Shown: positions 47,937 to 60,194, numbered from the stretch's first letter. The stretch: DNA of 64,000 nt from Spelaeicoccus albus (GCF_013409065.1 NZ_JACBZP010000001.1:3296518-3360517), one strand, 5' to 3'. Numbers and translations are program-made. The notes: generated by a model from the sequence alone, not told the origin.

Positions 47937-48578
47937 TCACCTGTTCTGCCTTACGGTGAGGCGCTGTCCGAAGAGTTCCATCCGACTGTCGATCCCGAGC
48001 TTTTGCAGTACGTTCGAGACGTGCGTCTTCACTGTCGGTAGTCCGATGAATAGTTCCCTAGCGATCTCTGCGTTCGTGTATCGCTGCAGCATGAAACCGA
48101 GCACTTCACGCTCCCGCGATGTAAGGAGCGATTCGTTCATTCGTTTGCTGAGAGAGCGCGCATCCCGCACGGTGTCTTCCTTCGTACTCCATACTCGGCG
48201 GCCGGTCGCAGTGGACCGTATCGTCTCCAGCAGGCTCGCGGTCGGCTGATCCTTTGTGATGAAGCTATCCGCCCCCGAAAGGAAGGCGAGACCTGCATCA
48301 TCGGGTGCGGTGAACGAGGTGTACATAAGTACATGGGGCACCCGATCAAGAGACTTGATCTCCCTGCATAGTTCCAGTCCCTCGGGCTCGCCACCAAGTC
48401 GAAGAGGCAGGATCACAAGCGACGGTTCTGCCCGCGCAACTGCGAGTAGTGCCTCTTCGGATCGTTCTGCTTCCGCAACGACCCCAAGATCAACCTGAGC
48501 GTCAACGACGGTCGCGAGACCAAGCCGAACAATCGGATGATCTTCGACGATCATGATTCGAATCAGCGCATCGCCCAT
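47937..48578 (-). CDS. NarL/FixJ-type response-regulator protein lacking the phospho-acceptor Asp
   Basis: Two-domain protein, 213 aa: a receiver-like domain (about 5-125) and a LuxR-type HTH (about 145-207: LLTSREREVLGFMLQRYTNA then EIARELFIGLPTVKTHVSNV). The receiver retains the acidic VEDH at its start, the Thr/Ser strand (MYTSF) and the Lys (ITKDQ), but where the phosphorylated Asp should be it reads SLVILPLRLGG, with Pro58. It therefore cannot be phosphorylated in the normal way. No sensor kinase is nearby. It overlaps the amidase gene by 16 nt and probably regulates this operon in response to a ligand or partner. Confidence 0.9.
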   Translation of the reverse strand: MGDALIRIMIVEDHPIVRLGLATVVDAQVDLGVVAEAERSEEALLAVARAEPSLVILPLRLGGEPEGLELCREIKSLDRVPHVLMYTSFTAPDDAGLAFLSGADSFITKDQPTASLLETIRSTATGRRVWSTKEDTVRDARSLSKRMNESLLTSREREVLGFMLQRYTNAEIARELFIGLPTVKTHVSNVLQKLGIDSRMELFGQRLTVRQNR

Positions 48579-49477
48579 TCATCCAGCCTTTCAAATAGTG
48601 ACCCTGGGCACCACTCCTTGGGAATAGTCAAACGTGCAGTCGCCAATGGATTGACTATTTGGCTGACCTGCGCCCGTCCAACGATGCTCGTGAGTCGATA
48701 CGCATTCGACCAGTCAAGCTCGTGCCAGATTTTCATGAGGTTGACTGCCTCTGCGAACGCTTCAGCGATAGCATCCTTCAGATCGAGTGCACTTGCAAGC
48801 AAACTCATGCCGTCTCGGTGGCACACCGCCGGCAGCTTCCCTTGATATCGTGCCCGGTCGACTCGAAGTTGGATTTGGCCGCCAATTTCGATCCCGGTTC
48901 CGCCCAGTTCACCGTCCCCCTGAGCTGCGTGAAGATCCCCAGCCGCGACTAGGCAGCCGTCGTGTTTGGCTTGCGCTAGAAATGCACTTCCGGCGGTTAA
49001 GAGACTCGTATCGAGATTTCCTCCGTGAGTGCCGGGACATTCGGTTGAAACCGGTGCTCCAGCCGGGGCCACGCCAATGACTCCGACCATCGGCTCGACA
49101 GGAACGCCGATGTCGCCGGAGATCCATGCCCGCCCATTTTCGATGGAGACGAGCCTAGTGCTCGCTTGCTCTACGTTGTCCCCCAATATGCCGAGGCCGG
49201 GTGCGACTGCCATCACGCCGGGCGACGTCACGTCGATTGCCTCAATTTGTATCCGAACCCAGTCGCCAGCTTGGACTCCGGCGACCTTCACAGGCCCTGT
49301 CGCACGATTGAAGTCGGCCATGTCAATGTCGGGTCTGAGCACCGACTCAGCGTCGATTTGGCCCGCGTAACAATCATAGGTCTCGAGCAGAAATGGTTCG
49401 CCGAGGTCAACTTCGGCTATCGCTTGGTGGGCATTAGAAAAACTTGTGATGGACTGTCGGGAGGGGACGCGGATCAT
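48563..49477 (-). CDS. Acetamidase/formamidase family protein
   Basis: Metal-dependent amidase of the FmdA/AmdA family, 304 aa, which hydrolyses short amides such as formamide or acetamide to acid and ammonia. Visible marks are GPVKVAGVQAGDWVRIQIEA at the N-terminal half, VAPGLGILGD, PGTHGGNLDTSLLTAGS and LVAAGDLHAAQGDGELGGTG, all characteristic. The start ATG 49477 shares its A with the upstream stop (TAATG), so translation is coupled to the permease gene. The end overlaps the receiver gene. The substrate is likely an amide imported by the permease. Confidence 0.92.
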   Translation of the reverse strand: MIRVPSRQSITSFSNAHQAIAEVDLGEPFLLETYDCYAGQIDAESVLRPDIDMADFNRATGPVKVAGVQAGDWVRIQIEAIDVTSPGVMAVAPGLGILGDNVEQASTRLVSIENGRAWISGDIGVPVEPMVGVIGVAPAGAPVSTECPGTHGGNLDTSLLTAGSAFLAQAKHDGCLVAAGDLHAAQGDGELGGTGIEIGGQIQLRVDRARYQGKLPAVCHRDGMSLLASALDLKDAIAEAFAEAVNLMKIWHELDWSNAYRLTSIVGRAQVSQIVNPLATARLTIPKEWCPGSLFERLDEWAMR

Positions 49478-50721
49478 TATGCCCACCCATCAGGGACAAG
49501 CCCGAAGGCGGTCAGCAACGAATAGATGAAAGCTAGGCAGAATACGAGCACCAGGAGCGCCTGAACGACGGGGTGAGAGATCCATCCTGCTTTCCATTCG
49601 GGTTCACGATCGCCAGACTTGCGGGCTTGATGCAACATCATTACCGGCACAACTGACATGATGGCACCGGCAAACCCGCCAGCGTAGCCGAGTGCGGACA
49701 CGAAACCCGCCCAATTCATCACCCCAATGATGAATGGCGGAATCGCAACCAGCGCAATCGCCGCGAGTCGATACTCTAGCCGTCCGTATGCCGGCCACCG
49801 AAAGCGATCAAAGACGTTAGTCATAAGCGTGAGAGCGATCGCCCAAAACGACGTCATCATCGCAAGTACCGCGAAGATGTTAGCCACATAATATCCCGCG
49901 GCGCCGAGTTCCTGGCCCCACGCGATAGTGACCACCTTCGTAATGTTCGCCGGGCCCATCATCCCCAGCGCTGCGAGCGGCACGAGCGCAAGTAGGAAAC
50001 CCGTGGCACACATTCCAACAACGATCGCGCGCGGTAAACCTCGAGGGTTGTGGTTAGCGAGCCCGCGGGCGAGTTCCGGCACGGTGTATTGGGCGATGAA
50101 AGAGAAGACCGCCAGGTTAACGATGGGAATAATGAAGTACGGGTGTACGTAGTTGAGATACTCGGCATGGATGCCCGGGCCGATGAAAGTCCAGCCGCAA
50201 AGGAGCAGGATAAGCCCCAACATTGCAATTGTGATCACTTGCTCGGATCGCCCAGTGGCCCGTAGACCGAACCACACGACGACGACTCCGGGGATGAAAA
50301 ATAATAAGCTTCCAAGAGTGGCAGGTATGCCGAAAATGTCGGCCAGGATGCTGCCACTGCCCGACGAATACGCAATCAGCGCGCCCAGACCGTTGATAGC
50401 GACGCCCGCGAACACCAGCCATGAGCCCGTATTACCCAGGTACTTCTGCGCGAGGCCGGAAAGCTGGAGTGGTTCTTTGGTACGGAGTGCGACCTCAGCA
50501 ACGTAAAGCATTGAGGCAGTCGTGAGTACGCCAGCAATTGCGAGCGCGACGAGCAATGCCGGAAAACCACCATTCCGAGCCCCGTAGGGAAGGCTTAGAA
50601 CCCCAGCACCGATATTGGCGCCGAAGATGATGGCGACGCCTTGCCCAAACGTAATGGCTGTGCCGTGGCGAGTTGCAGTTGGTACGTCGGATTCCTCAAG
50701 TGGCTCTGAGCTTGCTGTCAT
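49477..50721 (-). CDS. Aromatic/hydroxy amino acid permease-like transporter (HAAAP/AAAP group)
   Basis: Eleven- or twelve-helix amino acid permease, 414 aa from ATG 50721 (MTASSEPLEES), which is the first plausible start; upstream frame sequence is unrelated. The first helix motif IIFGANIGAGVLSLPYGARN is typical of the Trp/Tyr/Ser permease families related to AAAP carriers; VALRTKEPLQLSGLAQKYLG and VPELARGLANHNPRGLPRAI follow. No strong ribosome binding site is seen. It heads the operon with the amidase and the receiver protein and is divergent from a fold-III decarboxylase gene. Confidence 0.88.
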   Translation of the reverse strand: MTASSEPLEESDVPTATRHGTAITFGQGVAIIFGANIGAGVLSLPYGARNGGFPALLVALAIAGVLTTASMLYVAEVALRTKEPLQLSGLAQKYLGNTGSWLVFAGVAINGLGALIAYSSGSGSILADIFGIPATLGSLLFFIPGVVVVWFGLRATGRSEQVITIAMLGLILLLCGWTFIGPGIHAEYLNYVHPYFIIPIVNLAVFSFIAQYTVPELARGLANHNPRGLPRAIVVGMCATGFLLALVPLAALGMMGPANITKVVTIAWGQELGAAGYYVANIFAVLAMMTSFWAIALTLMTNVFDRFRWPAYGRLEYRLAAIALVAIPPFIIGVMNWAGFVSALGYAGGFAGAIMSVVPVMMLHQARKSGDREPEWKAGWISHPVVQALLVLVFCLAFIYSLLTAFGLVPDGWA

Positions 50722-51004
50722 AAAGATGTTCCGTTCAGTCGCGCGTAACTTCGGCCCACAAGGAGCACGGAGGAAGCAACTCCCGGGGGAACGTTCAAAT
50801 AAGCGGCGATGCGGTTCGCCACACCACACGATAGAACGTTACTGCACAGTGTTTGTCATCCTCAGCGGATGAATTCCTACCCGGATCTCATCCTTCAGGG
50901 TGGTTACGGTCGGCCAAATCCATTCATAGGCTCTTTAACGGGCGGAGCAAGTTGTTCGGCTAGTGCGCGGCACAAGACTATGGATGGAGCGTTTTTCGAG
51001 ACTT

Positions 51005-52315
51005 ATGAAGCAACCGAAACGACAGGAACAGATTCTGCGACATGCCATTGGCGCGGAATTACTCCACCCAGAGAATGCGCCAATCGCGTCGTTTCTCGAC
51101 TGGGACGGAGTCGAGCAGAACGTACAGCAGTTAATGGCAGCCTTTCCATCAGATATTCCAGTGCTCCACGCCTTCGCAGCGAAGGCAAATTCACTTGTTC
51201 CCGTACTTCTTAAGCTGGGTACCTTCGGTATGGGAGCGGAAGTGGCGAGCAGCGGCGAGCTATCAGCGGCTCTCGCCGGGCAGATCGACCCTGCGCGGAT
51301 CGTTTTCGACTCGCCAGCTAAGTCTTGGGACGAGCTCCGTCGCGCAATGAGGCTAGGGATCGCCATCAACGTCGACAACTTCCAGGAACTCGCCAGAGTT
51401 TCGCACCTTCGTGAAATCCAGGCGAGCCAGTCTCAGATTGGCGTTCGCATCAATCCTCAAGTTGGAGCGGGATCGATCCCAGCAATGAGTACTGCAAGTG
51501 CTCATTCGAAATTCGGAGTGCCGCTACGCGACCCGGGAATGCGTCAAAAGCTCCTCGACGCATATACAAGTCGTCCCTGGCTTCGACGTGCCCATGCACA
51601 TGTCGGATCACAAGGCTGTTCCCTCAAGCTCATCGCGGACGGAATTGCAGCATTGGTTGAGTTCGCAGATGAGGTGAATTCGCGGGCCGGCCGTGGGCAA
51701 GTGTCGACTATTGACATTGGCGGTGGTCTGCCCGTCGATTTCGACAGCGACCTCCCGAATGCTTCATTTGCCGAGTACACGGACCTGCTTAAAGATCGCG
51801 TACCACGGCTCTTTAGCGGAGACTATTCGATAGTCACTGAGTTCGGGCGAAGTATTCTTGCGAAACACGGCATGATCGTTGCGTACGTCGAGTACACGAA
51901 GACCGTCGGCGGTCGAAAGATCGCGATCACGCATGCTGGTGCGCAGGTGGCCACCCGCACCGTATTTATGCCCGAAGCTTGGCCACTTCGAATTCGGGCG
52001 TATGATCCATCTGGAGAGCCGAAACCTAACGACTGTCACGAAGTTCAGGATGTTGCCGGGCCCTGTTGTTTTGCCGGGGACTTAGTCGCACAAGGGAGGC
52101 ACCTCCCCCTGCTAGAGCCAGGGGACCTGGTTGTTCTCCTCGACACGGGCGCGTACTACGCAAGTACGCCATTCGACTACAACTCACTTCCGCTTTCTGG
52201 CGTTTACGGGGTCGAAAATCTCTCGTCAAACTTGCGCTCTACTGTACTCAGGGAGCCGCAGTGGAATCCGATTGCTGACCCACACATGTCCAAAATCCAG
52301 GATCTCGCAGGTTAG
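51005..52315 (+). CDS. Fold-type III PLP decarboxylase (LysA/ODC superfamily)
   Basis: PLP-dependent decarboxylase, 436 aa from ATG 51005; starts at 50984 or 50963 are possible and none has a good ribosome binding site. The PLP lysine is Lys60 in HAFAAKANSLVPV; the phosphate-binding Gly loop is DIGGGLPVDF; TEFGRS takes the place of the EPGRS of standard diaminopimelate decarboxylases; AGPCCFAGD carries the catalytic Cys. The family decarboxylates D-configured centres such as the D-end of meso-diaminopimelate, or ornithine, lysine or arginine. Divergent from the permease/amidase operon; a catabolic role is likelier than lysine synthesis. Confidence 0.9.
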   Translation: MKQPKRQEQILRHAIGAELLHPENAPIASFLDWDGVEQNVQQLMAAFPSDIPVLHAFAAKANSLVPVLLKLGTFGMGAEVASSGELSAALAGQIDPARIVFDSPAKSWDELRRAMRLGIAINVDNFQELARVSHLREIQASQSQIGVRINPQVGAGSIPAMSTASAHSKFGVPLRDPGMRQKLLDAYTSRPWLRRAHAHVGSQGCSLKLIADGIAALVEFADEVNSRAGRGQVSTIDIGGGLPVDFDSDLPNASFAEYTDLLKDRVPRLFSGDYSIVTEFGRSILAKHGMIVAYVEYTKTVGGRKIAITHAGAQVATRTVFMPEAWPLRIRAYDPSGEPKPNDCHEVQDVAGPCCFAGDLVAQGRHLPLLEPGDLVVLLDTGAYYASTPFDYNSLPLSGVYGVENLSSNLRSTVLREPQWNPIADPHMSKIQDLAG

Positions 52316-53595: not shown

Positions 53596-55158
53596 TCAGT
53601 CAGCAAGGCGTAACCCGAGCCACGTCGCAAGGCGCTCGTCGGGTTCGTCGATGCGTAGATCGAACAGCTGACGGGCCCGCTTGACGCGGTAGCGCAACGT
53701 ATTCGGGTGTATGTGTAGCCTTGCTGCGGCGGCGTCGACGTCGTTGGGTGAGACGAAGTAGGCGATCAGAGTATTTCGGTAATCCGTGCCTCTTCGGTGA
53801 TCGTGTTCGATCAGCGCCTGGAGGCTGCGCTCCTTCGGCATTTCATGGTAAGCGGTCGTCAAACGGCGCAAAAGCAGTTTGGCGTGCACATCGTCGAGCG
53901 ATGCGATGGCGGGAGCGCCGGGCTCGCGGGCGAGGAGCGCGAGGATTTCGTTGACTTCCTCCCTCAACCGCGTCACGACTTCTGCCCCCTGCCCGCCGGA
54001 ACTGATCGCTATCGAAATTCGACGCTCGAACCGGGTTTCAATTGCTTCGGCGGCGCTGGCGACGATATTGCGTGGCGCTGCCGGATCTCGAACGGCCGGA
54101 AAGAGGGCGTACACGATTGGTCCGACCGCAGTGCACAGCACGTTCATTCGGAACGTCGCGCAGTGCTGTTCGACAGCGGTTTCCAGCTGATGCAGGGGCG
54201 GGGGTACCGAGTCTCCGAGCGTCCGAAACGTGAACCCTACCAAAATAACGTCGAGACCTTCGATCATGCCGAAGCGGTAGTCGAGCGTCGAAAGAGGCCG
54301 GCTGCCTTCCATCAATGCGCGAAGTGCTCCTGCTCGCACTTGCCGTTCGAGATCGCTCGCGCTTTCCAATCTGAGTATCCGCAGCGCAGCGAGCCGGGAG
54401 GTTTCGATAAGAGCCTGCTCCGGCGAAACCCGTGACGATTGCTGCGACTCGATTGCCCACAGCGAGCCGACTGCTTGCTGGCCAGCACGAATTGCGACTG
54501 CACACCGGGGAAGTTCTTCGTTGTCGGCGTCGTACGGAAATCGGACTACACCGTTCGATTCCATGAGGCGACGGTATTGTCGGTCGTTATTAGGAGAATT
54601 CGGCACGTGCCGGGCGAGGATGCCGCTTCGTCGAAGTTCGTCGACCTCGTGGGCTTCAATCGTTGAATACGCCAAAACATTGCGATCGAGGTCTTCGATC
54701 GCGACCGCGCCGCCCACCGCGGCCGCAGCGGTATTGGCGAGGGCGAACAAATCGTTGCCGTCGCCGCCGCTTTCGGAATCGTAGCTCACGGTGACCGTAC
54801 TAATGAGGCGATCGATGTGTCGCCACGGCACCTCGTCGTTGATGACGAGCAAGGCCATATCGTTACGTTCTGCGTACGCCGTCACGTGCGCGAGGTCGAC
54901 TCCGTGTTGTTTTAGTGCGCACGCGACGAATCCGCGTGCGTGAGCCGCGTCGAGGACGTCAGAAAGCGATGGATCATCGGGCACGATCCCGGCCAAAAGC
55001 AAGATTCCTCCGGGCACGTCGGGCAATCGGTCAAACGCGTCGTAGACAACCGGGACAGATACCTCGGACGCCACGGACCGTTCGGTGCTGAACATCAACT
55101 CAGCAACTGCGGAGCCGAGCGTGCTGGCTAGGCTTCCGATGTCGAACGTCGTCGGCAC
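53596..55158 (-). CDS. PucR-family transcriptional regulator
   Basis: PucR/CdaR-type regulator, 520 aa. The N-terminal PucR ligand-binding region (about 10-120, VPGGILLLAGIVPDDPSLSD and VACALKQHGVDLAHVTAYAE) is followed by a GAF/GGDEF-like middle and a C-terminal HTH_30 domain (about 450-515: YFVSPNDVDAAAARLHIHPN then TLRYRVKRARQLFDLRID). Start is GTG 55158 with GAGAGGTGA upstream. Such proteins often activate divergent amine, purine or amino-acid catabolic operons, here the decarboxylase/D-aminoacylase/symporter genes. Confidence 0.92.
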   Translation of the reverse strand: MPTTFDIGSLASTLGSAVAELMFSTERSVASEVSVPVVYDAFDRLPDVPGGILLLAGIVPDDPSLSDVLDAAHARGFVACALKQHGVDLAHVTAYAERNDMALLVINDEVPWRHIDRLISTVTVSYDSESGGDGNDLFALANTAAAAVGGAVAIEDLDRNVLAYSTIEAHEVDELRRSGILARHVPNSPNNDRQYRRLMESNGVVRFPYDADNEELPRCAVAIRAGQQAVGSLWAIESQQSSRVSPEQALIETSRLAALRILRLESASDLERQVRAGALRALMEGSRPLSTLDYRFGMIEGLDVILVGFTFRTLGDSVPPPLHQLETAVEQHCATFRMNVLCTAVGPIVYALFPAVRDPAAPRNIVASAAEAIETRFERRISIAISSGGQGAEVVTRLREEVNEILALLAREPGAPAIASLDDVHAKLLLRRLTTAYHEMPKERSLQALIEHDHRRGTDYRNTLIAYFVSPNDVDAAAARLHIHPNTLRYRVKRARQLFDLRIDEPDERLATWLGLRLAD

Positions 55159-55347
55159 GATTCACCTCTCGATTGTTGGATTCGCTAATCATAGCCAATA
55201 AGTCTTAGCCGATCCGACAACATATTCAAAGTTGTTCTTCGCCAAGCTTTTAAGAGCAGTCCCGGAATGCTAAGCGCAGCCTCGGAATGCGCTGATACCC
55301 GGCATCTTTCGAGCTCACATTTTAAAGGCAAAACTGAAAGGAACGCG

Positions 55348-56754
55348 ATGGCTGCCCACTCGACGATCACGGCTACAGCCGCCGACGCGCTGACGATACT
55401 GCCGGAGGAATCCGTCATTTCCAGCACCGGCGAACTCGCTATTGGTGGGTGTCGCGTGAGCGACCTCGCCGCTGAATACGGTACCCCCGCTTATATCCTC
55501 GACGAAGTCGGACTTCGGCGACAGATTCGCCGATTCGTCGACGGGCTGGCCGCGATGCGACCGAACAGCGAAGTACTGTTTGCGTCGAAGTCGTTACCCG
55601 CCGTCGCGATGTATTCCATTGCCGCGTCCGAGGGTCTTAGCATCGATGTCGCAGGCGCCGGCGAACTCGTGATGGCGTTCTCGGCCGGGGTGCCGCCCGA
55701 CCGTATCTATCTGCATGGGAACGCGAAATCCGACTCGGAACTTCAGATGGCCATCGACGCGGGGATTCGAGCAATTGTCATCGACAACTTCGACGACCTA
55801 TCGCGGCTCGAGCGCCTCGTCACCGGCCCACAGCATGTGATGCTGCGAATGATTCCCGGTATCGCGCCGCAAACCCACGCGTCGCAGTCCACCGGCGGCA
55901 ACGACTCCAAATTCGGCCTTCGCCCCGACCAACTTGAGCAAGCAGTACACCGCATCCGCTCCCACCGGCACCTCGTCCTCGATGGAGTTCACGTCCACAT
56001 CGGCTCGCAGGTCCTCGACACGATGCCATTCGACCGGGCCGTACGCTCGGTCGCCGAGCTCGGAACATTCGACGCCTATGACGTCGGTGGTGGTCTCGGA
56101 GTCCGGTACAACAGTGCCGATGCAGCGCCCAGCGTTGACGAATACCTTCATACAATCGTCCGGGCGGCGGAACAACTCCCTGCCACCGCGCGGCTGCTCA
56201 TCGAGCCCGGCCGCTCCATCGTCGCGCGCGCCGGCGTCACTCTCTACCGTGTCAATACCGTCAAACGTACCGGCAAAACTTTTGTCGCGATCGACGGCGG
56301 CATGGCCGACAACTTAGATATTGCGCTGACTGACCAGCGTTACGAGGCGTACGTAGCCACCAAGTTCGACAAGGCGCCCAACACTCTTTGCGACGTCGTC
56401 GGGCGACAATGCGAGTCCGGTGATTTGATGGTCGCCGACGCGGCCCTCGCCAATCCGGAAGTCGGCGACCTCGTCGTTATGCCTGTCACCGGCGCATACG
56501 CCTACACGATGGCCAATCACTACAACGGGGCACTGACGCCGCCTCTCATCGTTTGCAACCAGGGCTCCAGTCGGCTTGCCGTACGGAGAGAGACCTTCGA
56601 CGACGTCCTCGCCACTCATCAGCCGGCTATGGACCACAGTTCGAAGGACGGCACACGCCCGTGGGCAACCTCTGAAATTGAGCCGCCAGCCAGCCCTAAA
56701 ACCGAGTTCACACAAAAGCAGACAACATCAGCCACCGATTGGGTCCGAGAATGA
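55348..56754 (+). CDS. Fold-type III PLP decarboxylase, diaminopimelate-decarboxylase-like
   Basis: PLP decarboxylase of the LysA family, 468 aa from ATG 55348 (AAAGGA upstream). The PLP lysine is Lys81 in LFASKSLPAVAM, followed by HVHIGSQVLD, the phosphate loop DVGGGLGVRYN, EPGRS at 286-290 and the catalytic Cys355 in GRQCESGD. The protein carries a polar C-terminal tail of about 40 residues beyond the normal LysA end. It overlaps the D-aminoacylase gene start (ATGA). This context suggests decarboxylation of a D-amino acid released by the aminoacylase rather than lysine synthesis, though a lysine role is not excluded. Confidence 0.9.
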   Translation: MAAHSTITATAADALTILPEESVISSTGELAIGGCRVSDLAAEYGTPAYILDEVGLRRQIRRFVDGLAAMRPNSEVLFASKSLPAVAMYSIAASEGLSIDVAGAGELVMAFSAGVPPDRIYLHGNAKSDSELQMAIDAGIRAIVIDNFDDLSRLERLVTGPQHVMLRMIPGIAPQTHASQSTGGNDSKFGLRPDQLEQAVHRIRSHRHLVLDGVHVHIGSQVLDTMPFDRAVRSVAELGTFDAYDVGGGLGVRYNSADAAPSVDEYLHTIVRAAEQLPATARLLIEPGRSIVARAGVTLYRVNTVKRTGKTFVAIDGGMADNLDIALTDQRYEAYVATKFDKAPNTLCDVVGRQCESGDLMVADAALANPEVGDLVVMPVTGAYAYTMANHYNGALTPPLIVCNQGSSRLAVRRETFDDVLATHQPAMDHSSKDGTRPWATSEIEPPASPKTEFTQKQTTSATDWVRE

Positions 56755-58364
56755 CTGGAACGACGATGCCCGAAACACTGATCTGCAATGCCACGATCGT
56801 CGACGGTTCCGGCGCGCCGCCACATCCTGGCGAGATCTTGGTACGCGCCGACACCATCGCCGGTCTTGGGCCGAATGGCCGATTTCAGCGGTGTGGTCGA
56901 CGGCTCATCGACGCAGGTGAAATGATCGTATCCCCAGGATTTATCGACGTACATTCCCACGCGGACAACGCTGCCTTATTGGATTACGCTGACGCCTCGA
57001 AAATTTCGCAAGGCGTGACTACCGAGGTAGTGGGCAACTGTGGAATGAGCCTCTTCCCGATCGACCCCGACCACTCGCCCGACACGGTGGCGCTCTTGGA
57101 GCAAACCTTTCCGCGACTCGCCTGGGACTGGCGGACGTATGCCGAATTCTCGTCACGCGTGACCGACCGTGGCGTGGTGACCAACCAGGCGCAGCTCCTC
57201 GGACACAACACGCTTCGTACATCTGTCGGCGCGAACGGCGCAACCTTGAGGCCGCAACAACAGGAAGCGATGCGAGCTCGCCTCACAGAAGCGCTCAATG
57301 ACGGCGCAACGGGGCTGTCCACCGGGCTCATTTACGCGCCCGGGGCCTATTCGAGTTTCGACGAATTGGCCGACCTCCTCGGACATTTACCGGCGACCGC
57401 AATGTACGCCTCGCACATGCGCAATGAAAGCTACGGTCTGCTCGAATCCATTGAGGAGATCATTGCGCTGGCGAGGCAATCCGGCGCGCGGTGCCACGTC
57501 TCCCATCTGAAGGCGTCAGGCTACAGCAACTGGGGAAAGGTCGGCGATGCGCTGGCCCTACTTGATCGGGCCCGCACAGACGGCCTAGCCATCAAACAAG
57601 ACATCTATCCCTACACGGCGTCGAGTACCATGCTGACAGCACTTCTCCCGCCCGCTTTCCGTGAAGGCAGCCCAGAGGAACTACTCGATCGCCTCGGTAC
57701 CCCAGAAGAACTGGAGCGACTCAAAGGCGACCTCGAAAGCGCAAATCCCAACTGGGAAAGTCCGATCCACGAGTCGGGATGGTCCAGTATCACGATCGCC
57801 TCCGCAGCATCCGGTCATGTTGAAGGGCACAGGCTCGACTCAATTGCCCGCGACCGCGAGACCGATCCCGTCACCACCTTGCGTGACTTATTGGTTGAAA
57901 ACGGTCTTCGGATCACGATGATCCAAGAGTCGATGGACGAAGCGGATATCGTGTCGGCACTTCGCAACGATCACACGATGATCGGAAGCGACGGCTTGCC
58001 GCCGGGACTCGGCGGCAAACCCCACCCTCGGCAGTGGGGCACGTTCCCCCGGATCATCGGCCGGTACTCACGCGAAAAGCAAATCCTGCCAATGACCGAG
58101 GCCGTGCGACGAATGACCAGTCTGCCCGCAGAATGGTTCGGCATAACCAATCGAGGTGCGATCCGGACTGGCATGAAAGCGGACCTCTGCGCGTTCGACT
58201 ACGAGTCGATCAACGACACCGCCACCTACGACGCTCCGGAATCGAAGGCCGACGGCATGCATTGGGTGATGGTCAACGGCACCATCGCATACGCCGACCG
58301 TGAGGTCATTGGCCTGGCCGGCCAGCTCCTGAAAAAAACCTACCCACCGCACCATGAGGGGTGA
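56751..58364 (+). CDS. N-acyl-D-amino-acid deacylase (D-aminoacylase) family amidohydrolase
   Basis: Zinc amidohydrolase, 537 aa, of the family that hydrolyses N-acyl-D-amino acids, with D-hydantoinase-like relatives. The metal motif is GFIDVHSHADNA (His68 and His70); EVVGNCGMSLFPI carries the Cys characteristic of D-aminoacylases; SHLKASGYSNWGKV and GSDGLPPGLGGKPHPRQWGT with the metal-binding Asp follow. ATG 56751 overlaps the upstream TGA. Immediately followed by the DUF997 and symporter genes. This indicates uptake and hydrolysis of N-acyl-D-amino acids. Confidence 0.93.
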   Translation: MTGTTMPETLICNATIVDGSGAPPHPGEILVRADTIAGLGPNGRFQRCGRRLIDAGEMIVSPGFIDVHSHADNAALLDYADASKISQGVTTEVVGNCGMSLFPIDPDHSPDTVALLEQTFPRLAWDWRTYAEFSSRVTDRGVVTNQAQLLGHNTLRTSVGANGATLRPQQQEAMRARLTEALNDGATGLSTGLIYAPGAYSSFDELADLLGHLPATAMYASHMRNESYGLLESIEEIIALARQSGARCHVSHLKASGYSNWGKVGDALALLDRARTDGLAIKQDIYPYTASSTMLTALLPPAFREGSPEELLDRLGTPEELERLKGDLESANPNWESPIHESGWSSITIASAASGHVEGHRLDSIARDRETDPVTTLRDLLVENGLRITMIQESMDEADIVSALRNDHTMIGSDGLPPGLGGKPHPRQWGTFPRIIGRYSREKQILPMTEAVRRMTSLPAEWFGITNRGAIRTGMKADLCAFDYESINDTATYDAPESKADGMHWVMVNGTIAYADREVIGLAGQLLKKTYPPHHEG

Positions 58365-58369
58365 GATTC

Positions 58370-58699
58370 ATGTCATCACACCGCACGGATCGCACGAACG
58401 ACGATTTCGAAGTCGACCCACGATACAAAGTCGCGAATAAGGAGGCCCTGATCGCCCTGGCCTTTTGGGTCGGCCAGACGGCCGCAATCACGATCATCGC
58501 TATCGCTATCGGATACGGCAAGAGCCCCGGCGAACTGTCGTTTATCCTGGGGATTCCGAGTTGGTTTTTCTGGACTGGCGGAATTACGACACTCGTCTTC
58601 TGCATAATTCCGTACATTCTCGTCAAATTATTCTTCAAAGACATATCCCTCGAAGCCACCGACTCACACCAGACCGACAAGGCAGTCGACAATGATTAA
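58370..58699 (+). CDS. DUF997 (YhdT-like) small membrane subunit
   Basis: A 109-aa protein with two hydrophobic helices (ALAFWVGQTAAITIIAIAIG and WFFWTGGITTLVFCIIPYIL) and the FVDPRYKVANKEA-like start DPRYKVANKEALIAL, typical of YhdT/DUF997. These proteins are encoded beside PanF-type sodium symporters and are thought to be accessory subunits. ATG 58370 is preferred; GTG 58361 is possible. The end overlaps the symporter start by 8 nt. Confidence 0.9.
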   Translation: MSSHRTDRTNDDFEVDPRYKVANKEALIALAFWVGQTAAITIIAIAIGYGKSPGELSFILGIPSWFFWTGGITTLVFCIIPYILVKLFFKDISLEATDSHQTDKAVDND

Positions 58700-60194
58700 T
58701 ACTGGCGCACTCATCACCATTGGAATTTACCTCCTCGTTATTGCAGCTGTCGGCGTTTGGGCGGCCATCGACCAAAAGCGCGCACGTACGGGACAAAAGA
58801 CTGAGAACTACTACGTGGGAGGCCGCAGACTAGGACCACTGGTTCTCATCTTCACCATTCTCGCCTCAGCAGCCAGCGCTGGAACCTTCATCGGCGGCCC
58901 TGGTCTCGTATACCACGACGGAATCGCGTTCTTGCTGATGGCGCTTTTCCAGGTGCCAACCGTGTTTTTGACCGTAGGATTGCTCGGCAAGAAATACGCA
59001 ATACTCGCCCGTAAACTCAACTTCTACACGTTCATCGATATTTTCAAGCAACGATTCGAAAGCCGGACTGTCACGACGATGGCGGGAATCGGAATCGTCA
59101 TATTCCTCGGTGCCTACATGGTGGCGCAATACGCGGGCGGCGCACATATCCTCCACGCCGTAACCGGCGTCCCGTATTCGACACTCGTCGTGGTATTTGC
59201 AGCCCTTGTCGCCGTCTACACTAGCTTCGGCGGGTTCATGGGCGCGTCGGTCAACGACACGGTGCAGGGAATCATCATGTTCGTCGGTGGGCTTATCCTT
59301 TGGGTTGCCGTATTCGCGTCGCTCGGTACCGCCACCCCAATGAACAGTCATTTCGCCGAGAAATTTCCGCAGCTGCTCACGCTGCCGGGCGGGACCGGCG
59401 CGAACATAGGCACGTTCATCTCATTCGCGCTCATATTCGGTCTTCTTGTCGTGTCGTCGCCGCACGTCGCGATCCGAGCGATGTCATACCGTGATTCGAA
59501 GACGGCCCACTCGGCGATCGCCTGGAGTCCGATAATCATGTACGTCATGACTATCGGATTCAGCTTGATGGGTCTTATGGCACGCTACTTCGCCCCAGCG
59601 TTGAAGAACCCAGATTTAGCGATCCCAACGATCATTACCCAAACCGTGAACGGGCCGCTGGCAGGGATTCTACTTTCGGCACCACTGGCCGCGATCATGT
59701 CTACGGTGTCGTCCATGCTCCTCGTAGTCAGCGGAGCAGTCGTCCGCGACATCGTCCGGAATCTGTTCGTCCCCAAAATGACCGACCAAACATCTTCTCG
59801 GACCAGCGTCGGTGTCAGTCTCGTCATTGGCCTAGCAACGATGGTCGTTGCCCTCAAGCCACCGGAGGCGCTCGAACTCATCGTAATTTTCGCATTGTCC
59901 GGGCTCGGAGCATTTTTCACGATCCCGTTCTTCGGCGCGTTGTACTGGCGTCGCGCGACGGCCGCCGGAGCATTCGTATCGATGCTCAGCGGACTCATCT
60001 GGTACATCGTCGGCCAACAGTGGCTACCGAGTCTCGGCGCGGGCATGGATCCCGTTGTGACCGCCCTGATCGTCTCGGCAGTCCTTTTCGTCGCCGTCAG
60101 CCTCCTCACCAAGCGTCCACCACGACACGTGATCGTGAAATTCTGGGGAACACAAGCCGAAATCGACAAGCTCGAGCCGAAGGTCGGTCAATGA
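58692..60194 (+). CDS. Sodium:solute symporter (SSS family, PanF-like)
   Basis: Thirteen-helix Na+-coupled symporter, 500 aa. The N-terminus reads TENYYVGGRRLGPLVLIFTI with LASAASAGTFIGGPGLVYHD, the usual SSS beginning. The core helix SSPHVAIRAMSYRDSKTAHS and APLAAIMSTVSSMLLVVSGA carry the Na+-site Ser/Thr residues. Pairing with DUF997 is typical of PanF-type pantothenate carriers. In this operon the cargo is more likely an N-acyl-D-amino acid than pantothenate, since no pantothenate gene is present. Confidence 0.93.
   Translation: MINTGALITIGIYLLVIAAVGVWAAIDQKRARTGQKTENYYVGGRRLGPLVLIFTILASAASAGTFIGGPGLVYHDGIAFLLMALFQVPTVFLTVGLLGKKYAILARKLNFYTFIDIFKQRFESRTVTTMAGIGIVIFLGAYMVAQYAGGAHILHAVTGVPYSTLVVVFAALVAVYTSFGGFMGASVNDTVQGIIMFVGGLILWVAVFASLGTATPMNSHFAEKFPQLLTLPGGTGANIGTFISFALIFGLLVVSSPHVAIRAMSYRDSKTAHSAIAWSPIIMYVMTIGFSLMGLMARYFAPALKNPDLAIPTIITQTVNGPLAGILLSAPLAAIMSTVSSMLLVVSGAVVRDIVRNLFVPKMTDQTSSRTSVGVSLVIGLATMVVALKPPEALELIVIFALSGLGAFFTIPFFGALYWRRATAAGAFVSMLSGLIWYIVGQQWLPSLGAGMDPVVTALIVSAVLFVAVSLLTKRPPRHVIVKFWGTQAEIDKLEPKVGQ

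Follow-up and report, generated by a model that had tools for sequence, protein, structure and literature searches.

A LysA-derived decarboxylase with a reversed recognition charge in a putative operon for N-acyl-D-amino acid use in Spelaeicoccus albus

We analysed a 64,000-nucleotide window of the Spelaeicoccus albus genome (NZ_JACBZP010000001.1:3296518-3360517, one strand), in which positions 53,596 to 60,194 hold a gene for a PucR-family regulator divergent from four genes, for a LysA-like fold-III decarboxylase, a D-aminoacylase-family amidohydrolase, a DUF997 membrane protein and an SSS-family symporter. The decarboxylase is not the LysA of this genome. It keeps the catalytic residues of diaminopimelate (DAP) decarboxylases and carries an aspartate where those enzymes hold the distal carboxylate of meso-DAP with an arginine, a switch shared by a clade of actinobacterial paralogues. 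We regard it as almost certain that this enzyme is not a DAP decarboxylase, and as probable that it acts on a basic D-amino acid. The full pathway, from uptake of an N-acyl-D-amino acid through deacylation to decarboxylation of a basic D-amino acid, has in our estimate a probability of roughly 55%.

The enzyme has the hallmark set of fold-III pyridoxal phosphate (PLP) decarboxylases (catalytic Lys, His, Glu, Cys and Tyr). In the numbering of Mycobacterium tuberculosis (Mtb) LysA, used throughout, Lys72, His211, Glu300, Arg303, Cys375, Glu376, Tyr405 and Tyr413 are all kept, and Arg344, the binder of the distal carboxylate of meso-DAP, is Asp. In a published structural comparison of the family (PMC7857480), ornithine, arginine and carboxyspermidine, all basic substrates, are bound by specificity-helix aspartates, where DAP decarboxylase uses an arginine for the carboxylate of its substrate. 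In the DAP decarboxylase of Thermotoga maritima, the distal carboxylate is held by Arg249 and Arg285 and the amine by Glu315, and the wild-type enzyme has weak activity on D-ornithine (PMC8277567). The charge reversal at position 344 would thus make the pocket favour a distal cationic group, which lends independent support to a basic, non-DAP substrate.

Searches for relatives of the decarboxylase sampled about 400 genomes at each of three taxonomic ranks, phylum, class and order (about 1,250 genomes were searched in total, part of them for other queries). In the alignment of hits, position 344 is acidic in all 24 members of the clade (8 Asp, 16 Glu) and Arg in all 51 LysAs. Across a wider set of 96 distinct loci, it is Asp or Glu in 90, Asn in five and unscorable in one, and the LysA-type Tyr413 is invariant in the clade. 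A maximum-likelihood tree of 96 sequences, from which the Salmonella enzyme DokD (see below) was left out, places all 43 acidic-type sequences in one group (SH-aLRT 100), nested within actinobacterial LysA. The class-wide search found a clade member in 20 of 395 genomes, or roughly 5% of the sampled Actinomycetes species; no relatives were found on viral contigs. The five loci with Asn344 form a divergent Leucobacter subgroup (L142, L147, L148, L152, L167) with altered following residues, in which PucR and an ABC transporter cassette are kept; this possibly reflects a further change of substrate.

The S. albus genome (one contig, 4.03 Mb) encodes four fold-III decarboxylases. A separate canonical lysA, which the original prediction had named as a point to check, is present at C1:2615679; it is Arg-type and lies in an argS-lysA-hom arrangement, as read from gene size and order. 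The window's gene is therefore neither the sole lysA copy nor part of a lysine-biosynthesis operon. At least one further lysA match was found in each of the 23 other clade hosts tested, and the second lysA copies retrieved from clade hosts all have Arg at 344. Such a distribution is the one expected of a paralogue that no longer recognises DAP and has come to recognise a cationic group. Automatic annotation will nevertheless name the window enzyme LysA, since it scores 371.9 bits against the NCBIfam lysA equivalog TIGR01048 (cut-off 297.9). The acidic-344 clade members tested also score above this cut-off, and annotation of this kind probably mislabels their genes as diaminopimelate decarboxylase.

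The features of the locus are:

53596..55158, minus strand: PucR-family transcriptional regulator (PF13556 HTH_30, E 8.7e-18)
55159..55347, no strand assigned: intergenic control region with putative divergent promoters (read from the sequence; predicted operator function)
55348..56754, plus strand: fold-III PLP decarboxylase, LysA-like, in which Asp occupies the position of the DAP distal-carboxylate Arg (Orn_Arg_deC_N, E 7.3e-48; Orn_DAP_Arg_deC, E 1.7e-15)
56317..56319, plus strand: codon for the Asp found at the position of Arg344 in Mtb LysA, equivalent to Arg285 of the T. maritima enzyme (from alignment)
56751..58364, plus strand: amidohydrolase of the D-aminoacylase / N-acyl-D-amino-acid deacylase family (Amidohydro_3, E 9.5e-28; motifs)
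58361..58699, plus strand: small DUF997 (YhdT-like) membrane protein, candidate symporter partner (PF06196, E 3.3e-14)
58692..60194, plus strand: PanF-like SSS-family Na+/solute symporter (PF00474 SSF, E 2.9e-69; TIGR02119 panF)

The gene order given in the original prediction is confirmed by five open reading frames at these coordinates and by their Pfam and NCBIfam matches, and the tight junctions it described can be read directly in the sequence. The decarboxylase and amidohydrolase genes share an ATGA overlap (56751-56754, given an amidohydrolase start at ATG 56751), the amidohydrolase and DUF997 genes a GTGA overlap (58361-58364), and the DUF997 and symporter genes overlap by 8 nucleotides (58692-58699). 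Because of these overlaps, the four plus-strand genes very likely form one translationally coupled unit. The start of the decarboxylase had to be corrected: its reading frame opens at 55267, and ATG 55348, with AAAGGAA just upstream, is most likely the true start. The C-terminal tail of this enzyme, pointed out earlier, is real; it is absent or unalignable in the 11 relatives aligned, and in the model of the 458-residue construct residues 415-458 have very low predicted local distance difference test (pLDDT) scores, under 50, so the tail gives no functional clue. The regulator has the C-terminal helix-turn-helix of its family (PF13556, 64.3 bits, cut-off 27). In the intergenic region, GTCTTAGCCGATCCGACAACATAT resembles GTCTTTAGCGGATCGGACAAATAT of a homologue in Arthrobacter sp. 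AQ5-05, and the two are a possible shared operator.

The amidohydrolase has among its nearest solved relatives the Alcaligenes D-aminoacylase (1m7j, E 4.7e-78) and an N-acyl-D-glutamate deacylase (3gip, E 4.4e-75), members of the same family with which it shares catalytic landmarks. The D-aminoacylase motifs DVHSHAD, GNCG, ASHM, SHLK, DIYPY, GSDG and PHPR are intact, and alignment to 1m7j shows that the positions we take to be zinc ligands and substrate-binding Lys, Tyr, Asp and Arg are kept. It is about 55-60 residues longer than the two solved enzymes and diverges from them at residues ~300-390. The best NCBIfam subfamily, PRK09061, is matched with 178.7 bits, under its cut-off of 340.

The symporter scores 365.5 bits against the panF model TIGR02119 (cut-off 328.05) and adjoins a DUF997 gene. 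E. coli PanF is likewise paired with a DUF997 protein, YhdT. Unlike the PanF-YhdT pair, the window's symporter shares an operon with a catabolic amide hydrolase and a decarboxylase, and pantothenate would not be its expected substrate. Pantothenate is itself an N-acyl amino acid, which makes it plausible that a carrier resembling PanF moves other compounds of this class. Each of the three other loci examined has the DUF997-SSS pair beside amide hydrolases; two of these loci, in two other genomes, have PucR divergent from an M20-like gene followed by DUF997 and SSS. This tendency is in keeping with a role in taking up N-acyl amino acids or small peptides. A paralogous DUF997-SSS pair in the S. 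albus genome (C1:1249296-1251133, L214:9297-11134), with an SSS protein 64% identical to that of the window, is followed by an amidohydrolase-like gene and has no decarboxylase.

Gene neighbourhoods also set the clade apart from LysA. Within the same flank, PucR was found close to 9 of 24 clade genes and to none of 50 LysA controls (Fisher p 1.2e-5), whereas argS is close to 24 of the 50 controls and to only one of the 24 clade genes; every locus is counted here as independent, despite the relatedness of some. In 31 of 96 loci, the gene directly next to the decarboxylase and divergent from it is PucR. A recurrent partner is an amino-acid ABC cassette of SBP_bac_3 protein, permease and ATPase (in Leucobacter, Agromyces, Arthrobacter, a Mycobacterium and others), whose binding protein resembles binders of polar and basic amino acids. 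Another is an amino-acid permease, together with an OKR_DC (Lys/Orn/Arg) decarboxylase and in some loci a Usp protein. A third group combines transporters of peptide type and M17 or M20 peptidases with a class-III aminotransferase and with a serine hydrolase, for which the best family is D-aminopeptidase at a score far under the cut-off.

A core of PucR, decarboxylase and amidohydrolase recurs in three other genomes with other transporters. Two related loci from metagenome-assembled genomes (MAGs; L156, L166) have PucR divergent from adjacent decarboxylase and amidohydrolase genes. In L156 the amidohydrolase is followed by two permease-like genes (Dpp-type by eye), with an SBP_bac_5 protein nearby; in L166 the contig ends inside the amidohydrolase. 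In Gulosibacter hominis (L145), the neighbours of PucR, the ABC cassette and the decarboxylase include an amidohydrolase and a hydrolase of the M20 type. One subclade (bootstrap/SH-aLRT 94/95) unites these three amidohydrolases with that of the window and with homologues of the latter found within its bacterial family. The nearest of those homologues (L006-L008) occur without a decarboxylase. A more distant amidohydrolase, outside this subclade, follows the cassette in Agromyces subbeticus (L077/L136). About 0.09-0.36 decarboxylase-amidohydrolase linkages would be expected by chance (p about 1e-4 to 6e-3), an estimate based solely on gene density, in which L156 and L166 are separate cases and loci are taken as independent; chance linkage is unlikely.

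Taken together, the locus would be an inducible catabolic operon, with PucR responding to the substrate or a product. The PanF-like symporter and its DUF997 partner would import an N-acyl-D-amino acid, and a cytoplasmic zinc amidohydrolase would cleave the acyl group off the D-enantiomer. The decarboxylase, presumably derived from actinobacterial LysA through charge reversal at the residue for the meso-DAP distal carboxylate, would then strip the alpha-carboxylate from D-lysine, D-ornithine or D-arginine to yield cadaverine, putrescine or agmatine. The proposal in the original prediction that a D-amino acid is released and then decarboxylated is strengthened by the non-LysA identity of the enzyme, its charge switch, which that prediction had missed, and the recurring core. 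We infer the D-configuration and N-acylation of the substrate from family membership and gene context, and the identity of the amino acid, the substrate of the transporter and the ligand of the regulator are likewise proposals.

Several observations weigh against this pathway. Among the close homologues of the symporter and the 96 decarboxylase loci examined, the full five-gene set was seen in one genome only; the conservation that the original prediction proposed to check thus holds for the core and does not extend to the exact set with DUF997 and SSS. Some clade members, for example in several mycobacteria, lie in contexts without obvious amino-acid catabolism. Known D-aminoacylases take mostly neutral or acidic N-acyl-D-amino acids, and the side-chain pocket of the window's amidohydrolase is unreadable by homology because residues ~300-390 are divergent and longer; the substrate ranges of the two enzymes may therefore mismatch in part. 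Wild-type T. maritima DAP decarboxylase, with its amine-binding Glu present, has no activity on D-lysine (PMC8277567). In the open-licence papers searched, we found no measured activity reported for any clade member.

The alternative that survives best, though we consider it unlikely, is that the decarboxylase takes an L-configured basic amino acid, as does the Vibrio vulnificus L-Lys/L-Orn decarboxylase, and that the amidohydrolase serves a separate scavenging step. Acidic specificity-helix residues are known in L-specific enzymes (PMC7857480), and OKR_DC enzymes and general amino-acid permeases adjoin some clade members. However, the decarboxylase descends closely from D-acting LysA with its Tyr413 invariant, it is linked to the D-aminoacylase family here and in three other genomes, and an L-basic decarboxylase alongside in the same operon would be redundant unless the clade enzyme takes the other enantiomer. 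The S. albus genome lacks OKR_DC and so has no L-enzyme partner of this kind. Actinobacterial OKR_DC enzymes stand beside clade members at L133, L135, L140, L094 and L160/L082, and the function of such homologues has been described as unknown (PMC8503589).

Somewhat less likely still is a larger D-configured or N-substituted cationic amino acid (carboxy-polyamine-like, opine-like or peptide-derived) in place of a free basic one. Carboxyspermidine decarboxylase also has a specificity-helix aspartate (PMC7857480), and peptide-type transporters and peptidases accompany several clade members, but the amidohydrolase would yield a simple D-amino acid and the binding protein of the companion ABC cassette matches binders of polar and basic amino acids. 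In one conserved cluster of this kind (L163, L184, L193, L198), SBP_bac_5, an M17 aminopeptidase, a class-III aminotransferase and an FGGY kinase stand with the acidic-344 decarboxylase and a serine hydrolase, the families being assigned on L163 and the other three loci matched by gene size and order; the cluster occurs also in a MAG labelled Acidobacteria.

A shared operon without a linear pathway, in which neutral N-acyl-D-amino acids are the substrates of the symporter and amidohydrolase and the decarboxylase is cargo with a loose relation to them, is improbable: the symporter does score as PanF, and its 64% paralogue in the same genome stands with another amidohydrolase and without a decarboxylase, but the genes here are tightly overlapped, and decarboxylase and the same amidohydrolase subfamily recur with different transporters. 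Despite the TIGR01048 score and the retained E376 of the distal amine site, a second, redundant DAP decarboxylase is very improbable, given the arginine reversed in charge across the clade, another lysA in all hosts tested, and linkage to PucR and transporters, with argS in only one of 24 cases.

LysA (M. tuberculosis 1hkv, Corynebacterium glutamicum 5x7m) is the nearest family by sequence, with a common fold, cofactor lysine and catalytic residues; the window enzyme differs in its Asp/Glu-type position 344, its neighbourhoods and its coexistence with a true LysA. In the fold search LysAs came on top, directly followed by the Salmonella D-Orn/D-Lys decarboxylase (DokD; PDB 6n2h), likewise a LysA-related fold-III enzyme that acts on basic D-amino acids, so the proposed type of reaction is already known. 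Structural alignments give 21-23% identity to DokD and 32-34% to actinobacterial LysAs, and the DokD model NF052544 is matched with 132.1 bits, below its cut-off of 700. Because the clade nests within actinobacterial LysA in a tree without DokD, the two probably arose independently. According to a 2021 paper, no decarboxylases other than those for DAP were known to act at a D-stereocentre (PMC8277567). To our knowledge, the Salmonella enzyme is the one clear addition.

The window holds a second fold-III decarboxylase (50963-52315, plus strand), 48% identical to another of the same genome (L003). Arg344 is kept in this enzyme, and Phe occupies the position of the glutamate for the distal amine (Mtb E376), the opposite of the change in the 55348-56754 enzyme; its substrate may therefore lack a distal amine while having a carboxylate or polar group at the distal end. 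The gene is divergent from those for an aromatic-amino-acid-type permease and a short acetamidase/formamidase (48563-50829, minus strand).

A search of open-licence papers found no description of the gene set, the operon or the clade. We see about even odds that the clade is an unrecognised family of basic D-amino acid decarboxylases under the LysA name, evolved from DAP decarboxylase through charge reversal in the specificity helix, which would scavenge N-acyl-D-amino acids or peptides with D-residues by decarboxylation and not by oxidation or racemisation. D-amino-acid decarboxylases are very rare, and a widespread clade in which one recognition residue has flipped its charge and every catalytic residue checked is kept offers a clean natural experiment on how an enzyme changes its substrate. 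Annotation by the lysA equivalog probably puts catabolic enzymes into lysine biosynthesis, which would distort metabolic reconstructions, and the locus suggests a route by which actinobacteria may use acylated basic D-amino acids.

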